Assembly (NCBI GenBank): GCA_028282785.1
Contig: JANQHE010000006.1
Span: 1-64,000 of the forward strand
Direction of reading: 5' to 3'
Length of the DNA stretch: 64,000 bases
From: Bacteroidales bacterium
GTDB lineage: Bacteria > Bacteroidota > Bacteroidia > Bacteroidales > UBA12077
The position numbers and the translations under genes are program-made. The notes below the pieces were generated by a model, which worked only from the letters and a program-made list of their open reading frames with translations, was not told the DNA's origin and ran no database searches. Below, one piece after another: positions 1-16,242 of this stretch (positions are counted from its first letter, which is position 1; every line of letters starts with the position of its first letter).

Positions 1-1323
1 GCAAATTTCAATCCCTTCTCGAATTCTTTTTACAGCCAAAGGGTATTCTGCCCTTATGTAAAAAATACCTTCTGTTGCACCAACTGCATAACTTGCAATT
101 ATTAAGCCCTCGATTATTCTAAATGGGTATGATTCCAGCAACATCCTGTCCATAAAAGCACCAGGGTCGCCTTCATCTCCATTACAGATAATATATTTTG
201 TTTCCGATTCATTATCTTTTACCAGCTGCCATTTTTGGCCAGATAAGAAACCTCCACCACCACGCCCTTTTAGGCCACTATTCTTAATTTCATCAATTAC
301 AGCTTGAGGAGGCATATCATTCAAACATTTACGAAGGGCTTCAAAGCCACCAAGCCTTTTATATTCCTCAATATCGAAAGGTTTTAATTCTCCTCGGTAT
401 TCTGTTGCAATATTTATTTGCCCGTCCAGGAATTGAGAAATTGGAGTATCAACTTCATCTTGAGTATATTTCTTGGTTAGTTTCGGAATGTTTTCAAAAA
501 CAAAGCTATCAACAAAATAGTTAAACTTGCTTTTAAATTTATCGATGAAACTGGTGGGTTGAAAGTGGTTTAAAACTATATCCCGTACTTCCTCTGAGTT
601 GATTTTTGTATAAAATGAAGGTGTTTCGTCTGGTTTATGTATTTCAAGCATAGGTACCTGGTTGCAAACACCAACACAGCCAACCTGTTTAACATCAACC
701 TTTATGTGGTTTCTATCTAAAGTTCGCTCTAATTCCTCCTTTATGTCTGAACTTCCACTTGCAATGCAACAAGAGCCCAGCCCAATTCTTATTTCGCCCT
801 GGGTTTTTTCATCAACGGCAAGTTTTGAGTTTCTCTGAGATTTTGGTTTGTCTTTATTCTCCAGGTAATCTTTTATAACTTCGGAAACTTTCTCTGGAGT
901 TACATGTCCGTAAGTGGTTTCATTGATTTGAACAACAGGGGCAAGTGTACAACAACCTAAACATGCTATTTTTTCTACTGTAAAGACACCATCATTGTCG
1001 GTATCCTCAATGCCCTCAATATTTAATTCCCTTTTAAAAGCATCATAAACCAACATTGCGCCTTTTACATGGCAGGCTGTGCCCACACAAACTTTTATAA
1101 TGTGTTCACCAACTGGTTTATGCCTAAACTGGGAATAAAATGTTGATATTCCATAAATCTTTGAAGGTGTGATATCCGTTGTATCACAAACTCGCTGAAG
1201 AGCTTCTTCGGGCAGGTAATTAAAATTGTCCTGAATTGCCTGAAGAATTGGAATAACCATATCAACGGTTTTTCCTTTTTCTTCAATTATATTATCAACT
1301 ATCTGTATTAATTCGCTGTTCAT
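1..1323 (-). CDS. Fused NuoE-NuoF-like NADH-oxidising flavoprotein subunit, 3' part outside window
   Basis: Open frame from an ATG at 1323 to the window edge (441 residues visible), read by hand translation. Residues 1-155 form a NuoE/HydC-like thioredoxin-fold [2Fe-2S] domain (IYGISTFYSQF near 56; ligands C79, C84, C121, C125 with CLGCCTLAP). Residues 178-250 form a second [2Fe-2S] thioredoxin-like domain as at the N-terminus of HndC/HydB (C185, C186, C216, C220). After about 310 comes the NuoF FMN/NADH domain (GLKGRGGGGF, then GDEGDPGAFMDR). Such proteins move electrons between NAD(P)H and an FeS partner such as an [FeFe] hydrogenase or complex I. NuoE and NuoF are normally separate proteins, so the fusion is notable. 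The partner would lie beyond position 1. It follows the redox locus on the same strand, separated by the GxxExxY gene. Confidence 0.9.
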   Translation of the reverse strand, partial: MNSELIQIVDNIIEEKGKTVDMVIPILQAIQDNFNYLPEEALQRVCDTTDITPSKIYGISTFYSQFRHKPVGEHIIKVCVGTACHVKGAMLVYDAFKRELNIEGIEDTDNDGVFTVEKIACLGCCTLAPVVQINETTYGHVTPEKVSEVIKDYLENKDKPKSQRNSKLAVDEKTQGEIRIGLGSCCIASGSSDIKEELERTLDRNHIKVDVKQVGCVGVCNQVPMLEIHKPDETPSFYTKINSEEVRDIVLNHFQPTSFIDKFKSKFNYFVDSFVFENIPKLTKKYTQDEVDTPISQFLDGQINIATEYRGELKPFDIEEYKRLGGFEALRKCLNDMPPQAVIDEIKNSGLKGRGGGGFLSGQKWQLVKDNESETKYIICNGDEGDPGAFMDRMLLESYPFRIIEGLIIASYAVGATEGIFYIRAEYPLAVKRIREGIEIC

Positions 1324-1390: not shown

Positions 1391-1777
1391 TTAAAAACCA
1401 TTTACAAATCGTTTAAATCCATTTTTTAATAATGGTACATTGAAATTTATTAAAAATCCTAATCTTTTATCTGCAAGTTTTAAATAAGATATAATTTGAG
1501 CTTCATGTACTGGTAATAAAACTTCAACTGCTTTTATTTCAATAATTATCTCTTTTTCAATTAAAAGGTCAATTCTAAAATCTTTGTTTAATTCATACCC
1601 TCTATAGTGTAATGGTAGAAAGACTTGTTGTTCTGTTTTTATTCCTCTTAAGCCCATCTCTTTTTGTAAACACATTTCATAAACTGATTCTAACAAACCT
1701 GGGCCCATTTCCTTATGAACTTGGATTGATGCATCTAATATTTCTTTCGATAACTTATTATATCGTTCTTTGTTCAT
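1391..1777 (-). CDS. GxxExxY family protein
   Basis: 128 residues, the usual full length of this family. The signature G-x-x-E-x-x-Y occurs as GLLESVYE (about residues 27-34). A later D-x-(9-10)-E-I-K pattern (FRIDLLIEKEIIIEIKAVE, about 67-85) resembles a PD-(D/E)XK nuclease core, to which the family is distantly related. Its biological role is not established. It lies between the membrane PQQ-like gene and nuoEF on the same strand, flanked on both sides by dispersed repeat words. It therefore looks like an insertion into the locus, not a functional part of it. Confidence 0.88.
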   Translation of the reverse strand: MNKERYNKLSKEILDASIQVHKEMGPGLLESVYEMCLQKEMGLRGIKTEQQVFLPLHYRGYELNKDFRIDLLIEKEIIIEIKAVEVLLPVHEAQIISYLKLADKRLGFLINFNVPLLKNGFKRFVNGF

Positions 1778-1912: not shown

Positions 1913-3751
1913 TCACTTCCCAATGCAATACAAATTTTTATCTGTACGGATATATATTCTGCCATCTGCAAATCCCGGTGTACTAACAACGCCTTCACCC
2001 AGGCTGGCTTTTCCAATAGAAACATATTCCTTGTCTGGTTTGAAAATGTGCGTTACACCCTTTTTATCTATAAGGTAAATTTTATTGTCAACCAGAATAG
2101 GAGATGAGTAAAAACCTTCCTGAAACTCCTGTTCCCATAAAAGCTCTCCGGTTTTTGCATCGTGGCATACAACAACACCATAACTAGTGGCAAGAAATAA
2201 ATATTTATCTGTAGCAACCGGGCTGGGAACATCAGATAAATAATCATATTGTTCCCAAAGTTTTTCAGGCTGTGCACCGGCTTTTATAGCTACCAGGCTC
2301 GCATATTCGTTTGTTGCAAAAACAATTCCATCAGCATAAGCAACGGATGGCCCGATTTCTCCAAATAAACAATCAATTCTCCATAATTCTTTCCCTGTTT
2401 TAGCGTCATATGAGGCTAAAAATGGGTCGGTTAATAGTAAAATTTCTACTCCATTATTCGTTTGTACTAAAACTGGTGATGCCCATGAAATTTTACCATT
2501 TCTTTCTGTTGTCCATATTGCTTCTCCGGTATTTACAGATAATGCCATAACTTTTGAAGCGGACCTGTGGTCATATTGTATTATTAATTTATCTTCATAA
2601 ATATATAGTGAAGATGAATAGCCATAGTGATTTTCGGGAACTCCCAAATTTTTAGCCCATACTCGTTTTCCATTCATGTCTAATGCAATAACATCACCTG
2701 TGGAGTAAATTGCAAAAACCTTTTTTCCATCAGTTGTAACGGTTGGTGCAGAGTGCCCCGTGTCTCCAGTTACCGCGGGAGCTGTTGTTGGCGATCCCGG
2801 AATATTGTCAGCAACAGCTGTCCAAATTAAGTTGCCGGTATTTGCATCATAACAATAAACTTCTTGTTTGTTGGCAATAGCACCTGATAAAAATACTTTA
2901 TTGCCCCAGATAACAGGCGAGTTATAACCTTGCAACGGGATTGAAGCTTTCCATAAAATATTGTTGCCACTTGGCCCATCCCAACTTTCAGGGATATTCT
3001 TTTGGTAAGCAATGCCATTTCCTCCGGGCCCTCTGAAAGATGGAAAATTAGCTTTCATCTCGGCTGTCGGGTATATATCTTTAATTTCCTGAACATTTGT
3101 TTCAATTTCTTCGGTTTGTGGCTCTTCAACCGCCTCTTGTACATTATCCACTTCCTCCGATTCTTCCTGTACTATAGGATTCGCAGTTTCCTGTTCAACC
3201 GCGGGTACCTTAGTTGTTAGTTCTTCATTACCTGAGTTTTCTGCAATAATTGCCTGGTTAAAAGTTTCTTCCAATTTATTGTGTGATAAAAATGCAAAAA
3301 GCAATGCAAGCACAACAATTCCAGCCCCACCAATTGACACCCATTTTCTGGCAGTTTTTTGTATAAACAGGTTATTTTCATCTTTATCTCCAACTTCAGG
3401 AGTTATTTTTTTTGCTGAATTCATTAATTGAATGGAAATAACAAATATAATAACTCCAATAAGCAAAAAATATCCGCCAGTGCGAATTTGCCATTGGTTT
3501 GTAAAATATGCTTTGCGAGCTAACAGGTCAATTTCTCGTATTTCTTCCCTTAAGGCTTCATCATTTGGGTTTTGGTTAAGCCTTTCAACCAAATTGTTAA
3601 TTATTTCAGTATTTACCGGGTCAATCCGGTTAATCTGAAAGTAATTAGCTATAATTAGAAAACATATTATAAATGAAAATATAGCAGCAACATACGAAAT
3701 TGCTTTCCATAATTGTACATTCGCTATAATCAACTTTCTGATTTTTTCCAT
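1913..3751 (-). CDS. Membrane-anchored PQQ-like beta-propeller protein
   Basis: 612 residues. Three predicted membrane helices (about 17-37, 91-110, 137-156) are followed by an acidic Glu-rich linker (165-225) and then a PQQ-like (BamB-type) propeller from about 235 to the end, opening with FPSFRGPGGNG. Repeated blade motifs include NTGNLIWTA, TGKELWRI and TGELLWEQ. The topology suggests that the membrane anchor holds the propeller outside the cytoplasmic membrane. It starts 1 base after the NapH-like stop, so the two are co-transcribed and probably coupled. Canonical quinoprotein ligands are not obvious, so PQQ binding is uncertain; a scaffold or sensor role is equally possible. Confidence 0.85.
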   Translation of the reverse strand: MEKIRKLIIANVQLWKAISYVAAIFSFIICFLIIANYFQINRIDPVNTEIINNLVERLNQNPNDEALREEIREIDLLARKAYFTNQWQIRTGGYFLLIGVIIFVISIQLMNSAKKITPEVGDKDENNLFIQKTARKWVSIGGAGIVVLALLFAFLSHNKLEETFNQAIIAENSGNEELTTKVPAVEQETANPIVQEESEEVDNVQEAVEEPQTEEIETNVQEIKDIYPTAEMKANFPSFRGPGGNGIAYQKNIPESWDGPSGNNILWKASIPLQGYNSPVIWGNKVFLSGAIANKQEVYCYDANTGNLIWTAVADNIPGSPTTAPAVTGDTGHSAPTVTTDGKKVFAIYSTGDVIALDMNGKRVWAKNLGVPENHYGYSSSLYIYEDKLIIQYDHRSASKVMALSVNTGEAIWTTERNGKISWASPVLVQTNNGVEILLLTDPFLASYDAKTGKELWRIDCLFGEIGPSVAYADGIVFATNEYASLVAIKAGAQPEKLWEQYDYLSDVPSPVATDKYLFLATSYGVVVCHDAKTGELLWEQEFQEGFYSSPILVDNKIYLIDKKGVTHIFKPDKEYVSIGKASLGEGVVSTPGFADGRIYIRTDKNLYCIGK

Positions 3752-3752
3752 T

Positions 3753-5048
3753 CTATATCGATTTATTTAATTCAATTTTATTTTCGGGCAAAACCGGGCA
3801 GTAATCCACGCACCTTGCACAACTTAAACATGAACCTTTATTAGGGGTGTAATCTTCTTTATACCTGAAAATTGTTAAGCTTACAAGTGTTAATCCAAAT
3901 ACAAGCCCAATAAACCCGCCAAGCATCCAACCTCCATAATAAAATTGTTTGGTGATTTTTGCTGCTTCTGTATATAATTCAGTTTTGGTTTGCCCCGATG
4001 CTTTAAAAGCTGTTATTTCAAAAGCTTCTTTTTCTGTCTCGCCAAAGTTTGTTTCGTTTATTAATTCATTGGCTAACCTTACTTTTGAGTTTGCCGATGC
4101 TAAATTCTCGTGAAACTGAGAACCTGTAAATCCTCCAATCAATATTAATACTGGTATTATTATGGTATACATTAAAAACCTTCTAACCGCGATTGGGCGT
4201 TCTTCTTTTTCTTTTAATAATACAGGTTTATCGATTGCCTCAAAAGGGCAGGAGTTTTCACATAACCTGCATTGAATGCACTCAGTAGGAGTAATAGTTA
4301 AATGTTTTTTTGAAAACCTGCTAACTAAATTTAGTAAAGCCCCATAAGGGCATAAAAACCTGCAGTAGGGGCGGGCTATAAAAACGCCAATTAAAAGCAT
4401 TATACCTCCAATGGCAAACATCATAAAAGTAGCATCGAGCCTAAAAAATCCAATAAAAGGGTCGTAACGGCAAATAACAAAATCGGTACTCGTTGCTGCG
4501 TATAATATGGCTAAACCAAGATAAATAAATGGGATTATACCTAACACTTTTTCGAGCCATGTTTTTATTGGTAACGGGCGCAAAGCAAAAATATCCTGTA
4601 TTGTTCCTAACGGGCAAACTCCTGCACAGAACGTCCTTCCAAAGAATAATGTATAAACAATGGGTAAAACAAAAAATGCAGTAACTGTTATGGGAATGCT
4701 ATATTCCGGGTTAAATAGTGCTAATGTGACATTTTGCAGTGAACCAACAGAACATACACAGCCTTCCCTGAAAAATCCAAAATACAATACGGCAAATACC
4801 GACATCCAGAATACACCATTTCTGGACCTTTTTTTAAGAACCAACCAGGTAACAACAGTTAAAGCTGCCGCTAAAACAAATACATCTAATACAGCTAATG
4901 CATGAGACCTTGGATCAGGCGTAATTGTTGGTGGCTGGGTATGCCCGGATTCAAATTCAGGTTTTGGAAAGCGCTGAACAGCAAATGAATTATATATCTG
5001 TAGAGATATTATAGTAAGTAAAAATATGATTGCAATTTTCTTTTTCAT
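3753..5048 (-). CDS. NapH/NosR-like membrane polyferredoxin
   Basis: 431 residues with several hydrophobic helices. The two CxxxCP motifs typical of NapH, RdxA and NosR are present (FCAGVCPLG, C141/C145; YCRFLCPYG, C229/C233). Two [4Fe-4S] motifs follow: C257, C260, C263, C267 (CIQCRLCENSC) and C407, C410, C413, C417 near the C-terminus. An extra GCVCSVGSLQ (C97/C99) sits before the first CxxxCP. A non-cytoplasmic insertion of about 60 residues lies between helices after 305. NapH-type proteins take electrons from menaquinol and pass them to an exported ferredoxin, and the gene upstream encodes one. No NapA, NapB or cytochrome is in the window, so the terminal acceptor is unknown. Confidence 0.85.
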   Translation of the reverse strand: MKKKIAIIFLLTIISLQIYNSFAVQRFPKPEFESGHTQPPTITPDPRSHALAVLDVFVLAAALTVVTWLVLKKRSRNGVFWMSVFAVLYFGFFREGCVCSVGSLQNVTLALFNPEYSIPITVTAFFVLPIVYTLFFGRTFCAGVCPLGTIQDIFALRPLPIKTWLEKVLGIIPFIYLGLAILYAATSTDFVICRYDPFIGFFRLDATFMMFAIGGIMLLIGVFIARPYCRFLCPYGALLNLVSRFSKKHLTITPTECIQCRLCENSCPFEAIDKPVLLKEKEERPIAVRRFLMYTIIIPVLILIGGFTGSQFHENLASANSKVRLANELINETNFGETEKEAFEITAFKASGQTKTELYTEAAKITKQFYYGGWMLGGFIGLVFGLTLVSLTIFRYKEDYTPNKGSCLSCARCVDYCPVLPENKIELNKSI

Positions 5049-5061
5049 TCAATTTTAGTTT

Positions 5062-5685
5062 TTAGCCTTCCTTTTTTTGTTCAAACCCAGCAAATAAATA
5101 CGGATCGTCAATCGATACTCTTTGGTATGCATCAGCCGGGCAATCCCGTGCTATTGCACATTCATTGCAATTAACACAAAGCCTATGGTTTACCTGTAAC
5201 TGAAGTGAACCATTTCCAAAAGCACCACACCCTTTAACACATTTAGCACACCCGATACATAAATCCTCAATTATATGGTATTCAAAAAAAGGTTCTTCGA
5301 TAAATTTTCGTTCAATTGCGCTTGTAGGGCATAATTGGTTTTCTGCTGCTGTAGTTAAGTTTTTAGATGATGGTCTAAAATACCCTCCGCATAAATCGCA
5401 ATAACCACACATATCATAGACATGAAAGCATTTAACGGCAGAAGGCGTTAGGACGCAACTAGTGGCACACCTTCCACAATGAGTGCATTTTGAAGGGTCG
5501 AGCTGCCAAACATATTCTTTGGCCTGGGATTTTTTAAATAAGGAGCCTACAATTCCAATTAAACCAACAGCAATTGAAAACCTAAACCCTTTATCAATAA
5601 AATCTCGCCTATTTAATCCCGCCTTTCGGCCCTGCCTGTTTGGCAGACTGGCAGGCAGGCCTTTCTTTTTTTCCTTCTTTGCCAT
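5062..5685 (-). CDS. NapG-like Tat-exported polyferredoxin
   Basis: 207 residues. A Tat-type signal (LNRRDFIDKG, then a hydrophobic stretch to about 48) precedes a Cys-rich body of 17 cysteines (67, 70, 73, 77, 86, 93, 96, 99, 119, 143, 146, 149, 153, 170, 173, 176, 182), enough for about four [4Fe-4S] clusters as in NapG. It probably relays electrons outside the cytoplasmic membrane with the NapH-like protein encoded 13 bases downstream. Oddity: residues 9-20 (GLPASLPNRQGR) before the twin arginines are encoded by a palindromic dispersed repeat (5631-5659). No later Met precedes the Tat motif, so ATG 5685 is kept. Confidence 0.85.
   Translation of the reverse strand: MAKKEKKKGLPASLPNRQGRKAGLNRRDFIDKGFRFSIAVGLIGIVGSLFKKSQAKEYVWQLDPSKCTHCGRCATSCVLTPSAVKCFHVYDMCGYCDLCGGYFRPSSKNLTTAAENQLCPTSAIERKFIEEPFFEYHIIEDLCIGCAKCVKGCGAFGNGSLQLQVNHRLCVNCNECAIARDCPADAYQRVSIDDPYLFAGFEQKKEG
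5631..5659. repeat. GGCAGGC palindromic repeat inside a coding region
   Basis: Arms CCTGCCTG (5631-5638) and CAGGCAGG (5652-5659) flank a loop that itself contains GGCAG. Related copies occur near 1806 and 25022. It lies in frame in the pre-Tat region of the NapG-like gene, where it encodes Gly/Pro/Leu/Arg-rich residues. Confidence 0.7.
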
Positions 5686-5687
5686 GG

Positions 5688-5930
5688 CTAAGCTGTTTTT
5701 TGCTTATTCCCAGCCTGCGAAAATCTTCGGCTGGCAAGCTTATTTCTTTTGAATATAATAGCTTCGGGCTGCTTGCAGGATTTTAATTCATTACAATTGT
5801 TACAAATGAAATCAAAATTACAAGGTTCAGTAACTTTTGCCCGTTTATGGATTAATACTCCTGTTATGGAGGCTAATCCAGCTAATATGGTTCCCCTGCC
5901 TATCGAAGCCAAAAACTTTCTTCTGTCCAT
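5688..5930 (-). CDS. Small Tat-signal Cys-rich protein
   Basis: 80 residues. The start MDRRKFLASIGRG is a strong Tat motif followed by a hydrophobic segment to about 27. After it come four cysteines (C37, C43, C46, C52) in a CxxxxxCxxCxxxxxC arrangement that could bind one FeS cluster or a metal. The family is unknown to me. It is 1 base from the NHL gene upstream and 2 bases from the NapG-like gene downstream, so it is almost certainly a component of the same exported redox module. Its last 17 residues (KLASRRFSQAG onward) come from a second palindromic repeat at 5710-5734, so the original C-terminus may have been replaced. Confidence 0.75.
   Translation of the reverse strand: MDRRKFLASIGRGTILAGLASITGVLIHKRAKVTEPCNFDFICNNCNELKSCKQPEAIIFKRNKLASRRFSQAGNKQKTA
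5710..5734. repeat. CCAGCC...GGCTGG palindromic repeat at a gene 3' end
   Basis: Arms CCAGCC (5710-5715) and GGCTGG (5729-5734), with an inner CGAA/TTCG pair. The word (gccagccgaag...cgcaggctgg on the minus strand) resembles a dispersed palindrome common in Bacteroidota genomes. It is read through in frame at the end of the small Cys-rich Tat gene. Confidence 0.65.
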
Positions 5931-5931
5931 A

Positions 5932-6894
5932 TTATTTCATTTTAAAAATTCTAACAATCTTTTTTACAGGGTCCAGCACATATATCCTGTCTTTCGAATC
6001 AACTGCTAAGTCAATTCCTTGTGTGCCTTCCTCAAATAGGGATGGTGCAGCCACAACAGATTTAAAGTCACCATTTGGAGAATGAACCTTAACTCTTTCT
6101 ATTCCTTTTTCACTAGTAACAAATGAACCATCCGATAATATAGCGATGTTTGAAGGGTTACAGCACCCACTAAAACCTTCTAATTGCATTGAAGTGCGCT
6201 CCCAGGATGAAATTAAATTCCCTTTTGCATCGTAGTTTTCAAAAGCATGCCTTCCCGGGTTTACAACCCATAATTTGCCGTAACTGTCAATTAACAAATC
6301 AAAATAAGGGCTTGGAATTATGAATCCAGGTATGCTTCTTATAGTATCTTTCTTGCCAATTTCATTAAGTAATTCTCCATTATGGTTGTAATGGTAAACA
6401 ACTTTATTTCCAGCATCAGCAACAAAAACAGAATTATCATTTGATGCAATGCTAGTTATTACAACATCATAATTTAATGTTTCCCAAATAGCTTTTTGAA
6501 CTCCTTCCTGTGAATAAACCTCAATGTGGTTAAGCATACCAAGAAGTATGCCACCGGTATTAGTTACATTTATACTGTAAGCCGTAGTATCTATATGGAA
6601 TGAAGATATTTCAGTTAATGAATTATCATAAATAATTACCTTTTGTTTTCCGGCTAAATAGATATTATCATTCTTATCAATAGTAATTGCCAATAATTCT
6701 TCAATTTCCGGTTCGATTTGGCCAATTTCTTCATGGCTAATCAAATCAGGGTCAATAACTTTTAATTTATCAATATTGTACTCGTAAGGATTCTCCTGTG
6801 ATTTATTTTTATTCTTATAAAAATCAAACCACATAATCGCTATTATTCCAATTAATAGAACAAGAGCAAAACCAACTATTACCTTTTGTTTCAT
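5932..6894 (-). CDS. Membrane-anchored NHL-type six-bladed propeller protein
   Basis: 320 residues. One N-terminal hydrophobic anchor (about 6-23) precedes repeats with NHL-like blade sequences (ITIDKNDNIYLAGKQKVIIYD near 70, VFVADAGNKVVYHYN near 156, LLIDSYGKLWVVNPGRHAFENYD near 200, LAVDSKDRIYVLDP near the end). A vicinal cysteine pair lies in blade 5 (GFSGCCNPSN, C244-C245), echoing the CC pair in the PQQ-like proteins upstream. It is the first gene of a tightly packed run (gaps of 1-13 bases) to 1913. Its substrate is unknown. The location, fused by operon to exported ferredoxins, suggests binding or electron transfer on the extracytoplasmic side. Confidence 0.8.
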   Translation of the reverse strand: MKQKVIVGFALVLLIGIIAIMWFDFYKNKNKSQENPYEYNIDKLKVIDPDLISHEEIGQIEPEIEELLAITIDKNDNIYLAGKQKVIIYDNSLTEISSFHIDTTAYSINVTNTGGILLGMLNHIEVYSQEGVQKAIWETLNYDVVITSIASNDNSVFVADAGNKVVYHYNHNGELLNEIGKKDTIRSIPGFIIPSPYFDLLIDSYGKLWVVNPGRHAFENYDAKGNLISSWERTSMQLEGFSGCCNPSNIAILSDGSFVTSEKGIERVKVHSPNGDFKSVVAAPSLFEEGTQGIDLAVDSKDRIYVLDPVKKIVRIFKMK

Positions 6895-6939
6895 CTTTTT
6901 AGATTTGAGTATTAAATATCAAGATAATATTTTTAATAT

Positions 6940-7014
6940 TCTCTGCGTCTTTGTGTCTCTGCGGTGTGTTTTTTATTTAGGTTAATTTACCGCTAAGTCG
7001 CTAAGACGCTATGA
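6940..7014. repeat. Dispersed GCxxAAG-type intergenic repeat
   Basis: Contains ctctgcgtctttgtgtctctgcgg and ccgctaagtcgctaagacgc, the same word family that flanks the GxxExxY gene near 1.3-1.9 kb, but here without an inserted gene. It separates the NHL-led gene run from the PQQ-like gene upstream. Confidence 0.6.
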
Positions 7015-8439
7015 TTATTCTCTTTTTATATCTAAACAAACCATTGTTTTTGAATCTCTCATTAGCAAATAGCCATCAGCAATTGCAATTGGCCCCCAGG
7101 CATCCACGCCATCAATAATTTTTGCTTTATCAAGCAAAGTAAATTTTTCGGTACTAGCTTTTGCAATTGTTAATGTTCCATCGTCGTTAAGTATAAAGAA
7201 TTTATCATCTGCAATTGTGTAAGGGCCTAATCCATAACGCTCATCTTTTCCACTTGTCCAAAGTATTGTTTGGCAATCGTTAGGGTCAACACAAACAAAC
7301 TGGTTGCGCATTCCACCGGCATCTTTTGGCAATATAGAAAACATACGCCCCTGGTATAAAATGGGTGTTTGTTGTTCGCTAGCCACTCCTTCGATTGGTT
7401 TGTATTTTTGTAATATATCAACGGAATAATTACCAGCACTCTCTTTGACTTGAAATAGAATTGCACCTGCACCATAACCAGCAGTCATAAATATTTTACC
7501 GTTATCCATAACAAGTGGGGAAGGTGCTATAACAGTCGGGGCGAAATCAATGGTTTTCCATAGTACCTGCCCACGGTCAGCTCCCTCAGCTGAAATTCCG
7601 CATATTCCGCCAACTGCCACATAAACATACATTTTCTTACCATTTAATTCCATTGGCATAACTGATGAATGAGACATTTGCCAGTTATCTGGGTTTGGAG
7701 TTTCCCAAATTACCTCACCTGAGGCCAAGTCAACGGCTATCAATAAGGATGTTCCTCCCGGAGCAATTATTGCTACATCACCATCAATTATTGGGCACTG
7801 CCCGGTATACCAGAATGGAACTTCTGTGTTGTATTCTTTTACTAAATCAATGCCCCAAAGAAAATCGCCGGTATTTGGGTCAGTACACATTACATGGCAC
7901 CTGGGCCCCATAGTAATTAAGTATTTATCATTTATTGCCGGAACTGTTCGCGACATTCCATGATTCCTTTTAATATGCACATTGTAAGAACGCCTCCATA
8001 ATTCTTCGCCTGATTCTAATGAGAAACAACGTAATGCATCTCTCTTTTTAAATTCATTATAATCGAGAATATAAACTTTCCCGTTATAGATTACCGGAGC
8101 GGCATGGCCTTCGCCCAGTTCAACTTTCCAAACGATTTTAGGCCCGTCTCCCCAACTATCAATTAAAGGGATATTTTCTTTATTAATGTTATCAAAATCC
8201 TCTCCTCTAAACCTTGTCCATTTACCGGTAAGTGTACTATTAATCGATACATATTCATCAAATCGTTCGCCAATTATTACATTATCAGATGTTTCGCTTT
8301 TAGGAGGGCGGTTATCTAACCCTGGTATGCTTGCAGTTAAATCTTTTACCGGGTCGTTTGTAAACCACCATAAAAACGAAGAAACACTAATTAAAATAAT
8401 AAATAATATTATAACCTTAATAAATCCCTGTTTTAACAT
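7015..8439 (-). CDS. PQQ-like beta-propeller protein, divergent copy
   Basis: 474 residues with an N-terminal membrane anchor (about 7-27) and a PQQ-like propeller from about 73 (KWTRFRGEDFDN in place of the WRGxNRDG of its neighbours). Blade motifs such as SLESGEELWRRSY, DPNTGDFLWGID and LASGEVIWETPN recur through the protein. It is less similar to the four upstream genes than they are to each other and lacks their WCC motif. It lies 49 bases after the four-gene array and 120 bases before the NHL gene, on the same strand. An extracytoplasmic propeller is clear; bound cofactor and partner are not. Confidence 0.83.
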   Translation of the reverse strand: MLKQGFIKVIILFIILISVSSFLWWFTNDPVKDLTASIPGLDNRPPKSETSDNVIIGERFDEYVSINSTLTGKWTRFRGEDFDNINKENIPLIDSWGDGPKIVWKVELGEGHAAPVIYNGKVYILDYNEFKKRDALRCFSLESGEELWRRSYNVHIKRNHGMSRTVPAINDKYLITMGPRCHVMCTDPNTGDFLWGIDLVKEYNTEVPFWYTGQCPIIDGDVAIIAPGGTSLLIAVDLASGEVIWETPNPDNWQMSHSSVMPMELNGKKMYVYVAVGGICGISAEGADRGQVLWKTIDFAPTVIAPSPLVMDNGKIFMTAGYGAGAILFQVKESAGNYSVDILQKYKPIEGVASEQQTPILYQGRMFSILPKDAGGMRNQFVCVDPNDCQTILWTSGKDERYGLGPYTIADDKFFILNDDGTLTIAKASTEKFTLLDKAKIIDGVDAWGPIAIADGYLLMRDSKTMVCLDIKRE

Positions 8440-8488
8440 GCTTCCCTTACAAATCGAGTATTATTATATATGTTGTAAATTTAGTTAA

Positions 8489-9727
8489 TTATTGAATTTT
8501 CTTAATATTAAATGCCATTAAAGCATCCATATGCCTGATATATAAAATACCATTGTGTATAACCGGGTGTGACCAGTGTGGGCCTGTTCCTAGCGGGACT
8601 TTAAAAGAGCTAATTATTTCAAACTTTTCAGGATTTACATTTACCAATGCAATATATCCGGTTTTTTCCTCATAACAATATAACTTCCCGTCAGCTGATA
8701 TTATGGAGCCCTTTGTTTTCCATTTGGTTTCATAATTGGCTTCTCCAGTATCCCAATTTATACAACACCAGTTTCCTTGCCCGTTATTAATCCAATTAGC
8801 TCCATAAATATGCCCATCAACCAAAACTACTCCACCATGGTGAACATCCAACACAGTATCAACCCATGCTAATGATACAGACTCCCAATTTTCATTAAGG
8901 TTTAACTTTACACTTTTATGGTTATACCCATTTGTTATGTATAAGCTATTTTCATAGTATAGTGGAGTATTAGTCTGGTTTTTTCTTCTTTCTCCGGCAT
9001 AAGGCCGGTTATCAAATTTCCAAACTATTTTTCCATTGCCTGGAGAAACTCCAATAATATGGTTTGGCGTAACAGAAACAATCAATTGTTTATCGCCATC
9101 TTTTATTAGCAATGGAGATGAATAAGATGGATTTTCGTTTAAACTTTCAGATGACCAAATATTTTCTCCAGTGTTTTTATTTAAGGCAATCATATTGGTT
9201 TTGCCACCACCTGTTGTATAAATAAGCTTATCATCTAGTATTAAGAGTGATTCAGATATTCCCCACCTGCCAATAGTTCCATCGTATTTTTCAATTGCTT
9301 TTAAGTCCCATATAATTTCACCGGTAATGGCGTTTATACAAGCAATGTCGCCTTGCCCACTTGAAACATATGCTTTGCCTCCTTCAATAGTTGGTGTCGA
9401 CCGGCTGTCAGGGTAACCTTTTGTCCTAGCTCTCCCATAAGGAGTTTGCCATTTAATTTTACCATCAAGGTTAACAGCAATTAGAACATCAAGTGTATCA
9501 CTAATTCCTGTGAAATAGATGGTATTATTTGCAACAGAAACGGATGAATACCCTTTATGCAAGTTTTCAACGGACCATATTAGTTCCGGCCCTTTTTCAG
9601 GCCACTTATCTAATAAACCAACTTCGTTGAAAACTCCAGTCCTTCCTGGCCCTCGCCATTCAGCAAGTTCTTGCCCCAGTAAAACTTGACAAAATAAAAT
9701 AGATATTAAGAACAACATACTTTTCAT
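8489..9727 (-). CDS. Secreted PQQ-like beta-propeller protein, array copy 4
   Basis: 412 residues. A Sec signal peptide (about 1-19, ending LLGQ) is followed by WRGPGRTGVFNEVGLLDKWP, the family opening, and about eight propeller blades. Array-specific motifs are LDVHHGGVVLVDGHIYG (about 293-309), WCCINWDTG (320-328, vicinal Cys 321-322) and the C-terminal GPHWSHPVIHNGILYIRH. It is strongly similar to the next two genes upstream, so local tandem duplication is likely. It lies 3 bases from its upstream neighbour. Annotation pipelines call such proteins BamB-like or PQQ-binding-like; enzymatic activity is not shown. Confidence 0.86.
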   Translation of the reverse strand: MKSMLFLISILFCQVLLGQELAEWRGPGRTGVFNEVGLLDKWPEKGPELIWSVENLHKGYSSVSVANNTIYFTGISDTLDVLIAVNLDGKIKWQTPYGRARTKGYPDSRSTPTIEGGKAYVSSGQGDIACINAITGEIIWDLKAIEKYDGTIGRWGISESLLILDDKLIYTTGGGKTNMIALNKNTGENIWSSESLNENPSYSSPLLIKDGDKQLIVSVTPNHIIGVSPGNGKIVWKFDNRPYAGERRKNQTNTPLYYENSLYITNGYNHKSVKLNLNENWESVSLAWVDTVLDVHHGGVVLVDGHIYGANWINNGQGNWCCINWDTGEANYETKWKTKGSIISADGKLYCYEEKTGYIALVNVNPEKFEIISSFKVPLGTGPHWSHPVIHNGILYIRHMDALMAFNIKKIQ

Positions 9728-9730
9728 GAG

Positions 9731-11005
9731 CTATTTCGATTTAATATCAAAAGCCATTATCGCATCCATATGCCTGATATATAAAATACCGTCATTTATA
9801 ACAGGATGCGACCAGTGAGGCCCTGAGCCCAAAGGCACCTTAAATGAACTAATTAATTCAAACTTCTCAGAATTTTGGTTTACTAAAGCTATATTTCCTT
9901 TTGATTCATCATAACAATATAGTTTTCCATCAGCAGCAATAATGGACCCTTTGGTTTCCCAATTTGCTGTATATTTTGTTTCACCAGTTTCCCAATCAAT
10001 ACAACACCAATCTCCCTTTCTATTATTAATCCAGTTAGAACCGTAAATATAGCCATCAACTAAAACGGCTCCACCATGGTGTACATCTAAGGTATTGTCG
10101 ATCCATTTTACCTCAACTTTAGAAAGGTCTTTTGATAATTGGAACATAACGCCCACGTGGTCATACCCGCTTGTTACATAGATATTGTAGTCTTTATAAA
10201 TTGGGTTATTCGTGTTGGTAAACGGGCCGCCTTCCCAAATTGCTACGGAAACTTCATTGCTGATAGAAGCATAATCTTTATGAAATAGTATTTCGCCGTT
10301 TTCAGCATCAACACCTATGAGGTTTGTAGCCAGCACATTAATTATTACCTTTTGATTATTGATCTCAGCTACAATAGGCGAAGCATATCCGGGTTTATCA
10401 TTAAGCGGTTTGCTTTGCCAAATAGTTTTTCCGGTATTTTTATCTAGCGCAACCATAGTTGTTTTATTGCCACATGGCGTAAAAATAATTTTATCGCCAA
10501 TGATTAAAGGAGATTCAGCTATTCCCCACTCACCAAAGTTGCCTTCGAATTTTTCGCTTGCATTAAATAACCATATTTTCTCACCCGTAATGGCATTAAA
10601 ACATCCAATATCACCGGTACCACTGGTAACCCATACTTTTTCGCCTTCAACTGTTGGAGTACAACGGCTAGGAGGAAAGGATTGTGCCCAACCTTTACCG
10701 ATTGGTACTTCCCACTTTTTATTACCATTATTATCTAAAGCAAATAAAACATCCATTTCATCTTTTAACCCGGTTGAATATATTAAACCATTCGCAACTG
10801 ATACTGTAGAATAACCCTGAGGTAATTCTTCTGCTGACCATAACATTTCCGGGCCATCTTCCGGCCATTCTGACAGAAGGCCAATTTCATTGTAAATGCC
10901 ATCTCTGTTTTCACCTCTCCACTGGCTTTGTTTTGTTGGATTATCAGTGCTAAATAAGGTTGATAAAAATATTATTGCGATTAAAAATATTTTTGTTGGA
11001 ATCAT
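9731..11005 (-). CDS. Secreted PQQ-like beta-propeller protein, array copy 3
   Basis: About 424 residues from the chosen ATG at 11005. A longer frame opens at 11101 but would overlap the preceding gene by 85 bases and bury the signal peptide (MIPTKIFLIAIIFLSTLF). The mature protein opens with QWRGENRDGIYNEIGLLSEW, then propeller blades, LDVHHGGAVLVDGYIYG, WCCIDWETG (vicinal Cys) and GPHWSHPVINDGILYIRH. It resembles copies 2 and 4 across its whole length. It is probably exported or surface-exposed, and translated with its neighbours (gaps of 11 and 3 bases). Confidence 0.86.
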   Translation of the reverse strand: MIPTKIFLIAIIFLSTLFSTDNPTKQSQWRGENRDGIYNEIGLLSEWPEDGPEMLWSAEELPQGYSTVSVANGLIYSTGLKDEMDVLFALDNNGNKKWEVPIGKGWAQSFPPSRCTPTVEGEKVWVTSGTGDIGCFNAITGEKIWLFNASEKFEGNFGEWGIAESPLIIGDKIIFTPCGNKTTMVALDKNTGKTIWQSKPLNDKPGYASPIVAEINNQKVIINVLATNLIGVDAENGEILFHKDYASISNEVSVAIWEGGPFTNTNNPIYKDYNIYVTSGYDHVGVMFQLSKDLSKVEVKWIDNTLDVHHGGAVLVDGYIYGSNWINNRKGDWCCIDWETGETKYTANWETKGSIIAADGKLYCYDESKGNIALVNQNSEKFELISSFKVPLGSGPHWSHPVINDGILYIRHMDAIMAFDIKSK

Positions 11006-11016
11006 GTTAATAATTG

Positions 11017-12276
11017 TTAAGTTTTTGAAATATTGTAAGCCATTAAAGCTTTCCCATGCCTTATATATAAAATACCATCGTTTATTACCGGGTGCATCCA
11101 ATGTGGGCCGGTTCCTAATGGAATTTTAAAAGAGCTTATTATTTTAAATTCATTTGGGTTAGCTTCAACTAATGCCAAATTGCCCTTCATTTCGTCGTAG
11201 CAATATAACATGCCGTCGGCATAAATAATTGAACCTTTAGTTTCCCATTCCGCTTCATACATCTTTTTCCCGGTTTCCCAGTTTATGCAGCACCAGTTCC
11301 CTTCACGGTTGTTTAGCCAGTTTGACCCATAAATATACCCGTCAACTTCCACAACACCACCATGGTGTGTGTCAAGAATTGTATCTGTCCACAAATGTTC
11401 AATGCTAGAGCCATCTGAGCTTAGCTTAAACATAGCCCCAACATGGTTATACCCGCTTGTTACGTATAATTGGTTATTATTATAAACCGGTGTAACACAA
11501 TTAATAATTGGTGCGTTTGGATGCCATACCGGAGTATTTATATCGTAATAACTATGGCTCCATTCCAGCTTTCCATTATCGGCATTAACACCAATGATAT
11601 TACTTGCTGTAATATTTACAATAAGCTTTTTATCCGGATATTCGATAAGAATGGGAGAAACATAAGCCGTAGAGTCATGGATCGTTTCGCACACCCATTT
11701 TTCATCACCCGTTAGTTTATCGAATGCAACCATGGTTGACTTTTCACCAACCGGAGTTAGAATTACTTTATCATCAATTACTAGTGGTGATTCAGCTATA
11801 CCCCAAAGTTCCAGGTGAGCTTCATATTTTTCTGCTGCATTAACTTTCCAAATAATATCTCCTGTTAATGCATTAATGCATGCAATATCGCCAAGCCCAC
11901 TTGTTACATATAACCTATCTTCATCAATGGTTGGAGTACATCGAGCTTCAGGAAAAGATTGATTCCAGGTTCTTCCGTAGCTTGTCCTCCATATAATATT
12001 ACCATTTAAATCCAATGCTATTACTTCATCAAGAGTGTCTTTAGTTCCTGTTAAATAAATTGAATTATGGGCAATAGATATTGATGAATTTCCCATAGAT
12101 AATTCTTCGGTAGACCACAATAATTCCGGGCCATTTTCTGGCCATTCTTTTAATAGGTTGGTTTCCTGAAATTTACCATCTCTGTTATTTCCCCTCCATT
12201 GTTTTATTTCATTCGATGGCCTATTACATTGAGTAAAAAATGCAACAATTACAAGTGCAGTGATTTTTAATCTCAT
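11017..12276 (-). CDS. PQQ-like beta-propeller lipoprotein, array copy 2
   Basis: 419 residues. The N-terminus MRLKITALVIVAFFTQCNRP carries a lipobox-like FTQC (Cys17), so this copy is probably lipid-anchored, unlike copies 3 and 4. The propeller opens QWRGNNRDGKFQETNLLKEW. It contains ILDTHHGGVVEVDGYIYG and WCCINWETG (vicinal Cys), and ends GPHWMHPVINDGILYIRHG. It lies 23 bases after copy 1 and 11 bases before copy 3. The mix of anchored and soluble paralogues in one array suggests subunits of one complex or a relay, but that is inference. Confidence 0.86.
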   Translation of the reverse strand: MRLKITALVIVAFFTQCNRPSNEIKQWRGNNRDGKFQETNLLKEWPENGPELLWSTEELSMGNSSISIAHNSIYLTGTKDTLDEVIALDLNGNIIWRTSYGRTWNQSFPEARCTPTIDEDRLYVTSGLGDIACINALTGDIIWKVNAAEKYEAHLELWGIAESPLVIDDKVILTPVGEKSTMVAFDKLTGDEKWVCETIHDSTAYVSPILIEYPDKKLIVNITASNIIGVNADNGKLEWSHSYYDINTPVWHPNAPIINCVTPVYNNNQLYVTSGYNHVGAMFKLSSDGSSIEHLWTDTILDTHHGGVVEVDGYIYGSNWLNNREGNWCCINWETGKKMYEAEWETKGSIIYADGMLYCYDEMKGNLALVEANPNEFKIISSFKIPLGTGPHWMHPVINDGILYIRHGKALMAYNISKT

Positions 12277-12299
12277 AGCTTTTCTAGTTGTTTGTTAAC

Positions 12300-13511
12300 T
12301 TATTTTCCAATATTATAAACCATTAGTGATTCTCCATGGCGTACATATAACCTCTTATTCCCGATAACAAGGTGGGCCCAGTGTTGATTGCTTCCATAAG
12401 GCACCCGGAATTGCCCCTTAACTGCAAACTTGTTTTCTTTTGGTTCCAGCAATGCAATTTCTCCTGCCTCGCTGTAACAGTATAACATTCCATCTGAATA
12501 AATAATGTTTCCACTTTTAAATATATTGGCTGAATACAATGTTTTACCTGTATTCCAATCAATGCAACTCCATTTATTGCCCCTGTCAACAGAACCGTAA
12601 ATACGCCCATTTGCAACTACAAAACTTCCGCTTTTATGGTCTATATCTGTATTTCTCCATAATTCTGTTACTTTTTTGCCATCATCGGATAATTTAAGCA
12701 TAACTCCACCCTTACCATATCCACTAACAATATAAATTTGACCATTACGGTAAATTGGGGTATTAGCATGAACAGAATAACGGTTGGTTTGCGTATGTTT
12801 CCAAAGTAGTTCTCCTGTATTTACATCAAAACCCAGAATTGAGTTAGCAGTTTGTGTAACAAAAATATTTTTGCCTTTGTGGTTTATAACAGTTGGTGAG
12901 CAATAGGCACTTGTTTCGGCATTTCCCTTATTACTCCAAATCAATTCGCCCGTGTTTTTGTTTAGTGCAATTACATTATGTTCGTTTCCGCCTATTGTGC
13001 AAAATAGCTTGTTTTCATGAAAAGCTAAGTTTTCTGTTATTCCCCATTTTATATTAACGCCACCATACTTTTTCATAACATCAACTTTCCATATAATTTC
13101 ACCATTATCTTTATTCATACAGTATATAACTCCATAGGCACTCATTAAATACAACTTATTATCAATTATTAGGGGAGTCGTCCTTACTCCATCCCAACTT
13201 TCAACCCATTCCTTGCCATATTCTGTTTTCCAGATTTGTTTTCCATTATGATCGAAAGCTATAACAAAACCTGTGCCTCCGATGGTTCCGGAAGTATATA
13301 CTGCTTTTTCAGTTACAGCAGCAGATGCATGCCCTACACCAAGCCCATCATAATGCCAAATTAATTCGGGGCCATTTGAAGGCCATTCTTTCAATAAACC
13401 AGTTTCATTGTAGGTGCCATCACGGTTTTCGCCACGCCACTGGACAATATTTTGAGAAAAACAAAAAATAGATATGAATAATGCTACTAAAAGTGAACTA
13501 ATTTTTTTCAT
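12300..13511 (-). CDS. Secreted PQQ-like beta-propeller protein, array copy 1
   Basis: 403 residues, first gene of the redox locus. A signal peptide (about 1-19, ending FCFSQ) is followed by VQWRGENRDGTYNETGLLKE and propeller blades to QHWAHLVIGNKRLYVRHG. It is the most divergent of the four-gene array: the motif equivalent to WCC is WSCIDWNTG, with a single Cys, and the paired His motif is DIDHKSGSFVVANGRIYG. It could therefore be the ancestral or a functionally separate member. The 376-base region upstream should hold the promoter, but I found no exact Bacteroidota promoter match there. Confidence 0.86.
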   Translation of the reverse strand: MKKISSLLVALFISIFCFSQNIVQWRGENRDGTYNETGLLKEWPSNGPELIWHYDGLGVGHASAAVTEKAVYTSGTIGGTGFVIAFDHNGKQIWKTEYGKEWVESWDGVRTTPLIIDNKLYLMSAYGVIYCMNKDNGEIIWKVDVMKKYGGVNIKWGITENLAFHENKLFCTIGGNEHNVIALNKNTGELIWSNKGNAETSAYCSPTVINHKGKNIFVTQTANSILGFDVNTGELLWKHTQTNRYSVHANTPIYRNGQIYIVSGYGKGGVMLKLSDDGKKVTELWRNTDIDHKSGSFVVANGRIYGSVDRGNKWSCIDWNTGKTLYSANIFKSGNIIYSDGMLYCYSEAGEIALLEPKENKFAVKGQFRVPYGSNQHWAHLVIGNKRLYVRHGESLMVYNIGK

Positions 13512-14934: not shown

Positions 14935-16242
14935 TTAGTTGTTTACTTTAGCTATCGCCTCCGGAATACCTTTCTCAAAAGGATTACTTTCATCGTTGCT
15001 CCATTCAAACCAACCACCATCGAAAACTGAAACTCTCGGCCATCCCATTAGCCATGCGTTGTAAAACGCTTCGCTACCACGCCATCCTGTTCCGCAATAA
15101 AATGCATTATGTTTATCAGGAGTTATTCCTACTTCATCCCAGATTTCTTTAAGCTCGTGAAATTCACGTGTGGTATGGTCCAGATTTCTGTAATTTTCCA
15201 TGTGGTATGCATCCGATCCGCAATTTCCAAATACAGCACCCGGAATACGGCCTGTTTTTTCAATGTAATTATATCCGCTTACTTCACCAATGTATTCCGG
15301 CCAGCTACGAACGCATACCAAATTGGCATCATCGGATTTTATCATTTCCTTAGCTTTTGGGACATCAACAATTAGTTCGGGTTTCGAAGGAATATTTGCC
15401 CCAAAATTATCTGCCGGATTTTTTGGCTCATCAATTGTACTGATTTCGAAACCTGCATCTTTCCATGACTGAAAACCTCCATTTAGCACTCGCACATCTT
15501 TAACACCGGCATACATCATTATCATTGAATTTCTAATGGCTCCGATATGCCCGGCAGCACTACCGGGAAATTCATCAGTATTATCAGGCGACATATATTT
15601 ACCATACATTATAACGGTTGTGTCTGAAGTTACTCCATGCTCCTCAAGAGCTTTTTTCAGTTCTTCAGCACTTCGACGATTCCAGGTCTCAGGTGCTTCC
15701 AATGCCAATGTATCCATATCGATGGCTCCGGGAATATGGCCGGTTAAGTATGCAACGCGATTGCGATAATGTGAATGAACAATGACAAACTTATCATTAT
15801 TATATTCAGGCGGTGTTTTACCATCCAATAAATCTTTCACCCATTTTGCAGAAACAAGATTTTTGTATCGCGCAAGCTGCTCCATAGGATATTTTTCATT
15901 GGCAGACCATTCATCAATAAAATGATTATATATTTTTATATCCGAATAACCGGCTTTTTGGAATACATTTGCTACTTTTTCAGAATCTTCTAGCCGGTAT
16001 GCATAAATAACTAATGAATTCTCTGGTACAATGTGTTTTGAGCGAACTATTTCAATCCAGTCAATATAATTACTCCACTTAATGGGTAAACTTTTAGCTC
16101 CTTTTATATGACCACCGCGTTTTTCATTTTGTTCTTTCCATCCATTGTATGAATTAACCGAACGGACATCAATAATTTTTAAGTTTTTGTTATTTAATAA
16201 GGAAAATAGTTCTTGTGTTGAGATTTCATTAAAGTTATGCAT
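14935..16242 (-). CDS. eanB: Rhodanese-type sulfurtransferase, likely EanB (hercynine to ergothioneine)
   Basis: 435 residues with three rhodanese-like segments (about 1-115, 130-270, 285-425). The final active loop is YCGTGWRGSEA with C383; the earlier domains lack an active Cys in the loop (for example VIMYGKY). The C. limicola EanB residues I recall from the literature (persulfide C412, C370, C339, and active-site Y353) all fall at a constant offset of 29 here: C383, C341, C310 and Y324. EanB transfers persulfide sulfur to an unactivated C-H of hercynine without oxygen. It is upstream of eanA on the same strand. The alternative is an ordinary thiosulfate sulfurtransferase, made unlikely by the offset match and neighbour. 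Confidence 0.8.
   Translation of the reverse strand: MHNFNEISTQELFSLLNNKNLKIIDVRSVNSYNGWKEQNEKRGGHIKGAKSLPIKWSNYIDWIEIVRSKHIVPENSLVIYAYRLEDSEKVANVFQKAGYSDIKIYNHFIDEWSANEKYPMEQLARYKNLVSAKWVKDLLDGKTPPEYNNDKFVIVHSHYRNRVAYLTGHIPGAIDMDTLALEAPETWNRRSAEELKKALEEHGVTSDTTVIMYGKYMSPDNTDEFPGSAAGHIGAIRNSMIMMYAGVKDVRVLNGGFQSWKDAGFEISTIDEPKNPADNFGANIPSKPELIVDVPKAKEMIKSDDANLVCVRSWPEYIGEVSGYNYIEKTGRIPGAVFGNCGSDAYHMENYRNLDHTTREFHELKEIWDEVGITPDKHNAFYCGTGWRGSEAFYNAWLMGWPRVSVFDGGWFEWSNDESNPFEKGIPEAIAKVNN

Follow-up and report, generated by a model that had tools for sequence, protein, structure and literature searches.

A Bacteroidales operon that may join an electron-bifurcating Bfu core to extracytoplasmic beta-propellers through NapH- and NapG-like proteins

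The stretch of DNA analyzed here (the window) comprises 64,000 nucleotides of contig JANQHE010000006.1 from a Bacteroidales bacterium (assembly GCA_028282785.1), and it begins with an operon of redox proteins and beta-propellers. As the original prediction had stated, ten genes on the minus strand code for six propellers of the pyrroloquinoline quinone (PQQ) type, an NHL propeller, a small Tat protein with Cys residues, and NapG-like and NapH-like proteins, and all ten lie where it had placed them. The first gene of the operon (12300-13511) codes for a PQQ_2 family propeller of 403 amino acids (aa; 95.2 bits) with a Sec signal recognized by eye. It belongs with three others in a group that we call Pq, which are 419 aa (11017-12276, 91.6 bits), 424 aa (9731-11005, 67.0 bits), and 412 aa long (8489-9727, 81.5 bits). 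The gene predicted at 9731-11101 was retained, but its start was moved from the TTG at 11101 to the ATG at 11005. The propeller P6 (474 aa, 7015-8439, PQQ_2 55.7 bits) consists of an N-terminal helix at residues 2-28 and a BamB-like beta-propeller, while Ptm (612 aa, 1913-3751, 106.4 bits) carries about three N-terminal transmembrane helices, judged by eye, ahead of its PQQ_2 propeller. The scores of the six thus run from 55.7 to 106.4 bits, compared with a Pfam gathering score of 27.6. Between P6 and Ptm are the NHL propeller (320 aa, 5932-6894), which has an N-terminal anchor by eye and NHL and SBBP matches above the cut-offs, the small Tat protein (80 aa, 5688-5930), the NapG-like Tat polyferredoxin (207 aa, 5062-5685), and the NapH-like polytopic ferredoxin (431 aa, 3753-5048) with Fer4_5 and Fer4 matches. 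The close packing claimed for 6894 to 1913 was borne out by the gene coordinates, the gaps from NHL to Ptm being 1, 2, 13, and 1 bases. The gap between NHL and P6 (6895-7014) holds a repeat-like text, CCGCAGAGACACAAAGACGCAGAG, at 6941-6964, the core of which has one further copy in the genome with one mismatch.

The operon continues on a second contig of the genome. The window starts at base 1 of its contig (C30), inside the gene for NuoEF, which is cut there, so that positions 1-1323 (minus strand) code for the N-terminal 441 aa only. The first 99 bases of C30 are identical to the last 99 of contig C1, which holds the remainder (L086), and the joined NuoEF has 782 aa. After NuoEF, C1 codes for a 522-aa GltD/NuoG-type protein (BfuA), a secreted BamB-like propeller (Pbam), a GT4 glycosyltransferase, a LolD/MacB-like ATPase (ABC), an FtsX permease, and one more propeller. 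In 20 further downstream stretches, GT4, ABC, and FtsX were consecutive in 11, and ABC and FtsX stood together in 3 more (L169, after other open reading frames (ORFs), L170, and L185). Partial sets occurred in L171, L173, and L178, and none of these genes in L180, L184, and L186. A coproporphyrinogen III oxidase gene follows NuoEF in L153 (Pfam) and L164 (by eye), where BfuA was not found.

This arrangement is conserved in relatives. In a scan of named genomes, limited to the best 80 of 497 NapG-like relatives, the genera among the matches listed were Marinifilum, Labilibaculum, Ancylomarina, Mariniphaga, Sunxiuqinia, Gaoshiqia, and Perlabentimonas. Loci were collected to a total of 127, and removal of duplicates and two distant loci left 113 distinct ones; the denominators that follow are the loci with enough flanking DNA for each neighbor. 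NHL (87/91) and P6 (75/81) were found upstream of the NapG-like gene, and NapH (100/102), Ptm (85/91), NuoEF (75/81), and the GltD-type BfuA (63/71) downstream. Where more than 7.5 kb lay upstream (n = 69), one to five more propellers occurred in 62 loci and zero in 7. The linkage is far beyond chance, and the conserved gene order rules out an assembly of chance neighbors. Scattering of the genes was not seen across the 113 loci.

Among 295 genomes of the order, a NapG-like protein was matched at an E value of 1e-15 or better in 48, of which G216 and G136, only 36 and 39% identical, were set aside, leaving 46 cassette genomes. P6 was present in 49 genomes, NHL in 46, and all three proteins in 44 (the NapG and NHL lists exclude G136 and G216). 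In one genome (G037, L191), the P6 block and the NapG block are on separate contigs, and other ORFs flank the P6 block on either side, so the association is more than a matter of adjacency. The NapG-like protein was absent from the three other genomes of the genus of the window. In a draw of 394 genomes from the phylum, few of them from the order, the sole match was the window's own genome, and the system is known here from the one Bacteroidota order alone. A viral or plasmid origin was rejected, as NapG had no relative in viral contigs and P6 and NHL had none in plasmids. Two loci (L083 and L084) contain a distant NapG-NapH-NHL module, 30-35% identical, together with a PhnD-like binding protein (PF12974); their NHL proteins retain the GCCNP motif described below.

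On sequence grounds, NuoEF is best placed in the electron-bifurcating Bfu family, as a BfuBC core in fused form, and not as a piece of a standard complex I. In the window's own gene, Pfam recognizes over the two pieces a thioredoxin-like [2Fe-2S] domain, an FMN-binding NuoF part, and a C-terminal ferredoxin with two [4Fe-4S] motifs. In the homologue from L111, residues 178-780 align with solved Bfu B subunits. Its nearest solved relatives are 9bov (labelled NADH dehydrogenase (quinone)), 9n5u (NfnB), 8oh5 (labelled HoxF), 7q4v (HydB), 7t2r (NiFe hydrogenase B), 8a6t, and 7p5h, among which 9n5u, 7q4v, 7t2r, and 8oh5 represent Bfu B subunits. We took 8oh5 as Stn on account of its chain C, which at 1172 aa matches StnC in length (PMC10482914). 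The Bfu family is defined by its BfuBC core; of 1558 BfuB proteins, 8 are reported to lack the His that ligates the B2 cluster, and this His is reported to be absent from non-bifurcating homologues (PMC9304861). The corresponding signature, H-x4-C-x4-C, was present in 76 of 77 distinct NuoEF sequences of at least 650 aa, and the one miss (L104) is a broken gene; an earlier and stricter pattern had matched 69 of the 77. The window's own NuoEF carries this motif as YEAHINGVCPTGKC. In the same article, 17 BfuB clades have no function assigned to them, and some Bacteroidetes BfuB fall in Nfn clade 53 (PMC9304861). A fused NuoEF had already been predicted next door on the same strand, and this stood, but its role as a mere neighbor did not, as BfuBC and BfuA belong to the locus.

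By its alignments, BfuA resembles the Stn/Nfn proteins and has lost their NADP(H) domain. Residues 2-291 and 276-517 of the short protein align with 4-293 and 426-672 of 9bov_A, and residues 2-298 and 291-519 with 4-300 and 441-674 of 8oh5_C; in both cases the intervening stretch is missing. The NADPH site of StnC is in this GltD-like region (PMC10482914). On contig C54 (L194 1281-7352, minus strand), the window's own genome also contains a separate and complete Stn-type transhydrogenase set (172, 592, and 1232 aa) in which the B2 histidine is present. Within the NADP(H) region, its 1232-aa paralogue retains GGGNTA at 335; the cassette BfuA aligns only with residues 5-291 and 461-701, so that the segment from about 292 to 460, including GGGNTA, is absent. 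Sixty-six cassette homologues measured 480-558 aa; outside the length filter fell six shorter ones (323-399 aa) and two longer ones (867 and 1135 aa). The flavin (FAD) domain is also missing in five loci (L074, L077, L078, L080, and L082; 323-366 aa), and in L069 BfuA runs into the Pbam propeller as a fusion of 867 aa. The short BfuA (E below 1e-80) was present in 38 of the 295 genomes, 37 of them NapG-positive, and full-length forms were found in NapG-negative genomes and in the window's own genome. A BfuA without an NADP(H) site should hand its electrons to another protein, and the conserved candidate is NapH.

The membrane part of the locus had been described as a NapGH quinol module. The likeness to NapG and NapH was upheld, but quinol as the electron source is less well supported, given scores below the curated cut-offs and the Bfu enzyme in the locus. 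The cassette NapG reached 17.9 of 178.85 bits against the MauM/NapG family TIGR00397, and NapH 55.7 of 213.05 bits against TIGR02163. In the NapG-like protein, 16 Cys are invariant across 32 aligned relatives and likely form four [4Fe-4S] sites. The NapH-like protein has two CxxxCP motifs and two [4Fe-4S] motifs, C257-267 and C407-417. The small Tat protein has a four-Cys motif (C37, C43, C46, and C52) that was found in 81 of 100 loci and was fused to the N-terminus of NapG in 5 of 100. In one locus (L192 821-6439, minus strand), a C25 peptidase and a PorZ-like protein with type IX secretion tails lie between NHL and the small Tat gene. As predicted, no canonical reductase adjoins the locus, and a reductase operon beside NapGH was also looked for and not found in related genomes. 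NapA was not detected in the window's own genome and was above cut-off in 3 of the 46 cassette genomes, where these draft assemblies have it on contigs other than that of NapG, while the same search matched the E. coli control genome. On these results a detached half of a Nap system was rejected.

The propellers are well conserved, with a mean column identity of 62% for P6 (40 sequences) and 49% for NHL (37 sequences), and a GCCNP motif at 243-247 of the NHL propeller is invariant. Similar GCCNP-type NHL proteins probably occur in Planctomycetes. The structure model of P6 (pLDDT 90.6) suggests the fold of the BamB, YxaL, and tetrathionate hydrolase propellers, at 11-17% identity in those matches. 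No quinoprotein dehydrogenase was among the 50 fold relatives listed, a list that excludes nothing. Residues of P6 conserved at 95% or more made up 50 of 152 positions in the loop segments after the Trp motifs versus 47 of 253 otherwise (p = 0.0017); as the segment borders were set by eye, we do not propose a catalytic site in P6 on this basis. The propellers had also been proposed as new quinoproteins, which our results make unlikely. The five of the six that were scanned scored 23-56 bits against the PQQ-dependent alcohol dehydrogenase family TIGR03075, for which the cut-off is 480.05 bits. PqqB and PqqE were above cut-off in none of 37 genomes (35 of the 46 cassette genomes, G136, and G216), and also in none of 14 control genomes, so the search had no positive control; matches below cut-off occurred in 31 and 35 of the 37, respectively. 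On account of the low scores and the lack of biosynthesis genes above cut-off, we rejected PQQ-dependent dehydrogenases as improbable.

Other genes accompany the operon. A PD-(D/E)XK protein (PF13366 by Pfam; 1391-1777, minus strand) is coded between Ptm and NuoEF and is probably an insertion outside the machine. The same gene is at this place in L088-L090 and in none of the listings for the remaining 77 loci, some of which do not extend over this point; PF13366 genes occur elsewhere within the operon in L101, L114, L118, and L147. Upstream of the operon are genes for a histidine-specific methyltransferase (PF10017, 13888-14886) and a rhodanese protein with three matched stretches (14935-16242).

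Taken together, we consider the chance slightly better than even that the operon codes for a membrane-linked Bfu enzyme of the HydBC type that is wired to propellers outside the inner membrane. What was observed is the domain make-up of the proteins, the signature residues of Bfu, the loss of domains, the gene fusions, the conserved order of the genes, and their co-occurrence; the contact between BfuA and NapH, the direction of flow, the acceptor, and the role of the propellers are inferred. The cytoplasmic NuoEF core would handle NAD(H) and ferredoxin. BfuA, without its NADP(H) domain and in some lineages without its FAD domain, would be mainly an iron-sulfur wire, continued by the clusters that the NapH-like protein holds on the cytoplasmic side. 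From NapH, electrons would cross the membrane and reach the NapG-like polyferredoxin and the small Tat protein, and the anchored propellers NHL, P6, and Ptm may hold or be the extracytoplasmic acceptor. The first two links of this putative path come from family knowledge, and the others are suggested by gene order, fusions, and domain loss. Electrons from PQQ-type donors and enzymes are too oxidizing to reduce NAD+ or ferredoxin. For this reason, and because no PQQ synthesis gene was above cut-off in the 37 genomes, outward flow is favored, in which NADH and reduced ferredoxin would be confurcated and low-potential electrons exported. The physiological role may be electron overflow in fermenters.

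Several points weigh against this wired Bfu enzyme. No fusion of BfuA with NapH was seen, their contact rests on gene order, and quinol could also be the donor of NapH. An electron wire leaves GT4, ABC, and FtsX unexplained, and in Marinifilum-type loci GT4 is absent and Pbam is followed directly by ABC. The Fisher p-values for co-occurrence (3e-44 or less) ignore ancestry and are a guide only. One genome that is 97% complete (G167, L188) has Pq-Pq-P6-NHL without a NapG match, and the propeller block may be able to exist independently. Nine of the 46 NapG-positive genomes were without BfuA at E 1e-80, five of them with the flavinless form and four showing none. A tRNA methyltransferase gene follows NapG in place of NapH in L081, NHL and BfuA are relocated in L129, and the L069 fusion could be due to a lost stop codon. 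Furthermore, the absence of the B2 His from non-bifurcating homologues is a statement of PMC9304861 alone.

It is also conceivable, although we think it rather unlikely, that the NapGH-like module is a menaquinol dehydrogenase feeding a periplasmic redox system run by the propellers, with Bfu as a co-regulated neighbor that balances cytoplasmic NADH and ferredoxin. NapGH has been described as a quinol dehydrogenase (PMC5449189), and NapH-like modules serve several partners (PMC8238504). The scores of the cassette proteins below the curated cut-offs and the extra C-terminal ferredoxin motif of NapH argue against it, as does a BfuA that needs a partner other than NADP(H) and has NapH as its conserved neighbor. 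Electrons might instead flow inward, from an outside substrate oxidized by the propellers through NapG and NapH to BfuABC, which would split them between NAD+ and ferredoxin. Bfu enzymes can run in either direction (PMC9304861), and NapH-like clusters with the alcohol oxidase ExaA occur in 172 genomes (PMC8238504), but the unsuitable potential of PQQ-enzyme electrons and the 0/37 result for PqqB and PqqE, for which there was no positive control, make this direction improbable; a low-potential donor other than PQQ would be compatible with it. In the third explanation, the locus is mainly an envelope assembly or glycoconjugate system in which the propellers would be scaffolds like BamB or YxaL, GT4 and ABC-FtsX would make or transport a product, and reduction of disulfides or a metal in that product would fall to the redox part. 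By itself this leaves the 16-Cys ferredoxin, NapH, and the bifurcating core unexplained, and we regard it as improbable too.

If the wired Bfu enzyme is real, one Bfu variant gains a membrane exit, the large group of uncharacterized "PQQ-like" propellers gains a redox context, and there may be a new way of moving electrons out of the cell. It would also offer fermenting Bacteroidota a candidate route for passing some electrons to metals. Of the electrons from glucose, Labilibaculum isolates pass 2-16% on to Fe(III) or Mn(IV); their authors suggest as candidates a ferric reductase and an NrfHA-annotated cytochrome and call for further work (PMC5760507). Cytochrome c has been presumed elsewhere (PMC9765461), and a cytochrome route is the standing guess. 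We tentatively propose that a Bfu enzyme with a third substrate outside the cytoplasm, co-oxidizing NADH and ferredoxin with a cytochrome-free exit through NapH and NapG to propeller acceptors, could explain this metal reduction, an idea that we hold to be doubtful. The operon is in three Labilibaculum records among the matches listed (L095, L099, and L100), and L. manganireducens is not among the loci; the link is speculative and at the genus level only.

Bfu cores, NapH-like wires, and propellers are each of known kinds. The operon that combines them is common to many bacteria of one Bacteroidota order and apparently undescribed. In agreement with the original prediction, which knew of no system with such a composition, searches of an open-licence library turned up no account of a Bfu core joined to a NapH/NapG arm and propellers, and passages of PMC11406978 and PMC9012536 do not describe the operon. 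The closest relative of the cytoplasmic part is the Nfn-Bfu transhydrogenase Stn (StnABC) of Sporomusa ovata, which shares the kind of BfuBC core and the N-terminal NuoG-type and GltD-type region of BfuA. The cassette differs in its missing NADP(H) domain, the flavin domain also missing in the five loci, its fused BfuB and BfuC, and its tie to a membrane polyferredoxin and propellers. Membrane-bound Nuo-Bfu and Mbh-Bfu complexes have been predicted, in which BfuABC genes are likewise within a membrane-complex operon (PMC9304861). Their arms are complex I-like or hydrogenase modules, whereas the cassette arm is NapH/NapG-like and directed toward the periplasm. NapGH, the donor of periplasmic nitrate reductase, similarly combines a polytopic iron-sulfur protein with a Tat-exported four-cluster protein, but the cassette proteins are far below its curated cut-offs, NapA is lacking in the window's own genome, and NapH has the extra C-terminal ferredoxin motif. 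Modular NapH-like transmembrane electron transfer, in some cases with the quinoprotein ExaA, is also found in flavinylated systems (PMC8238504); in contrast to these, the window genes have no match to an FMN-binding domain of that kind, and the cytoplasmic partner is a Bfu core. Finally, P6 is set apart from BamB, YxaL, and tetrathionate hydrolase by invariant residues of its own and by an anchoring helix at the N-terminus.

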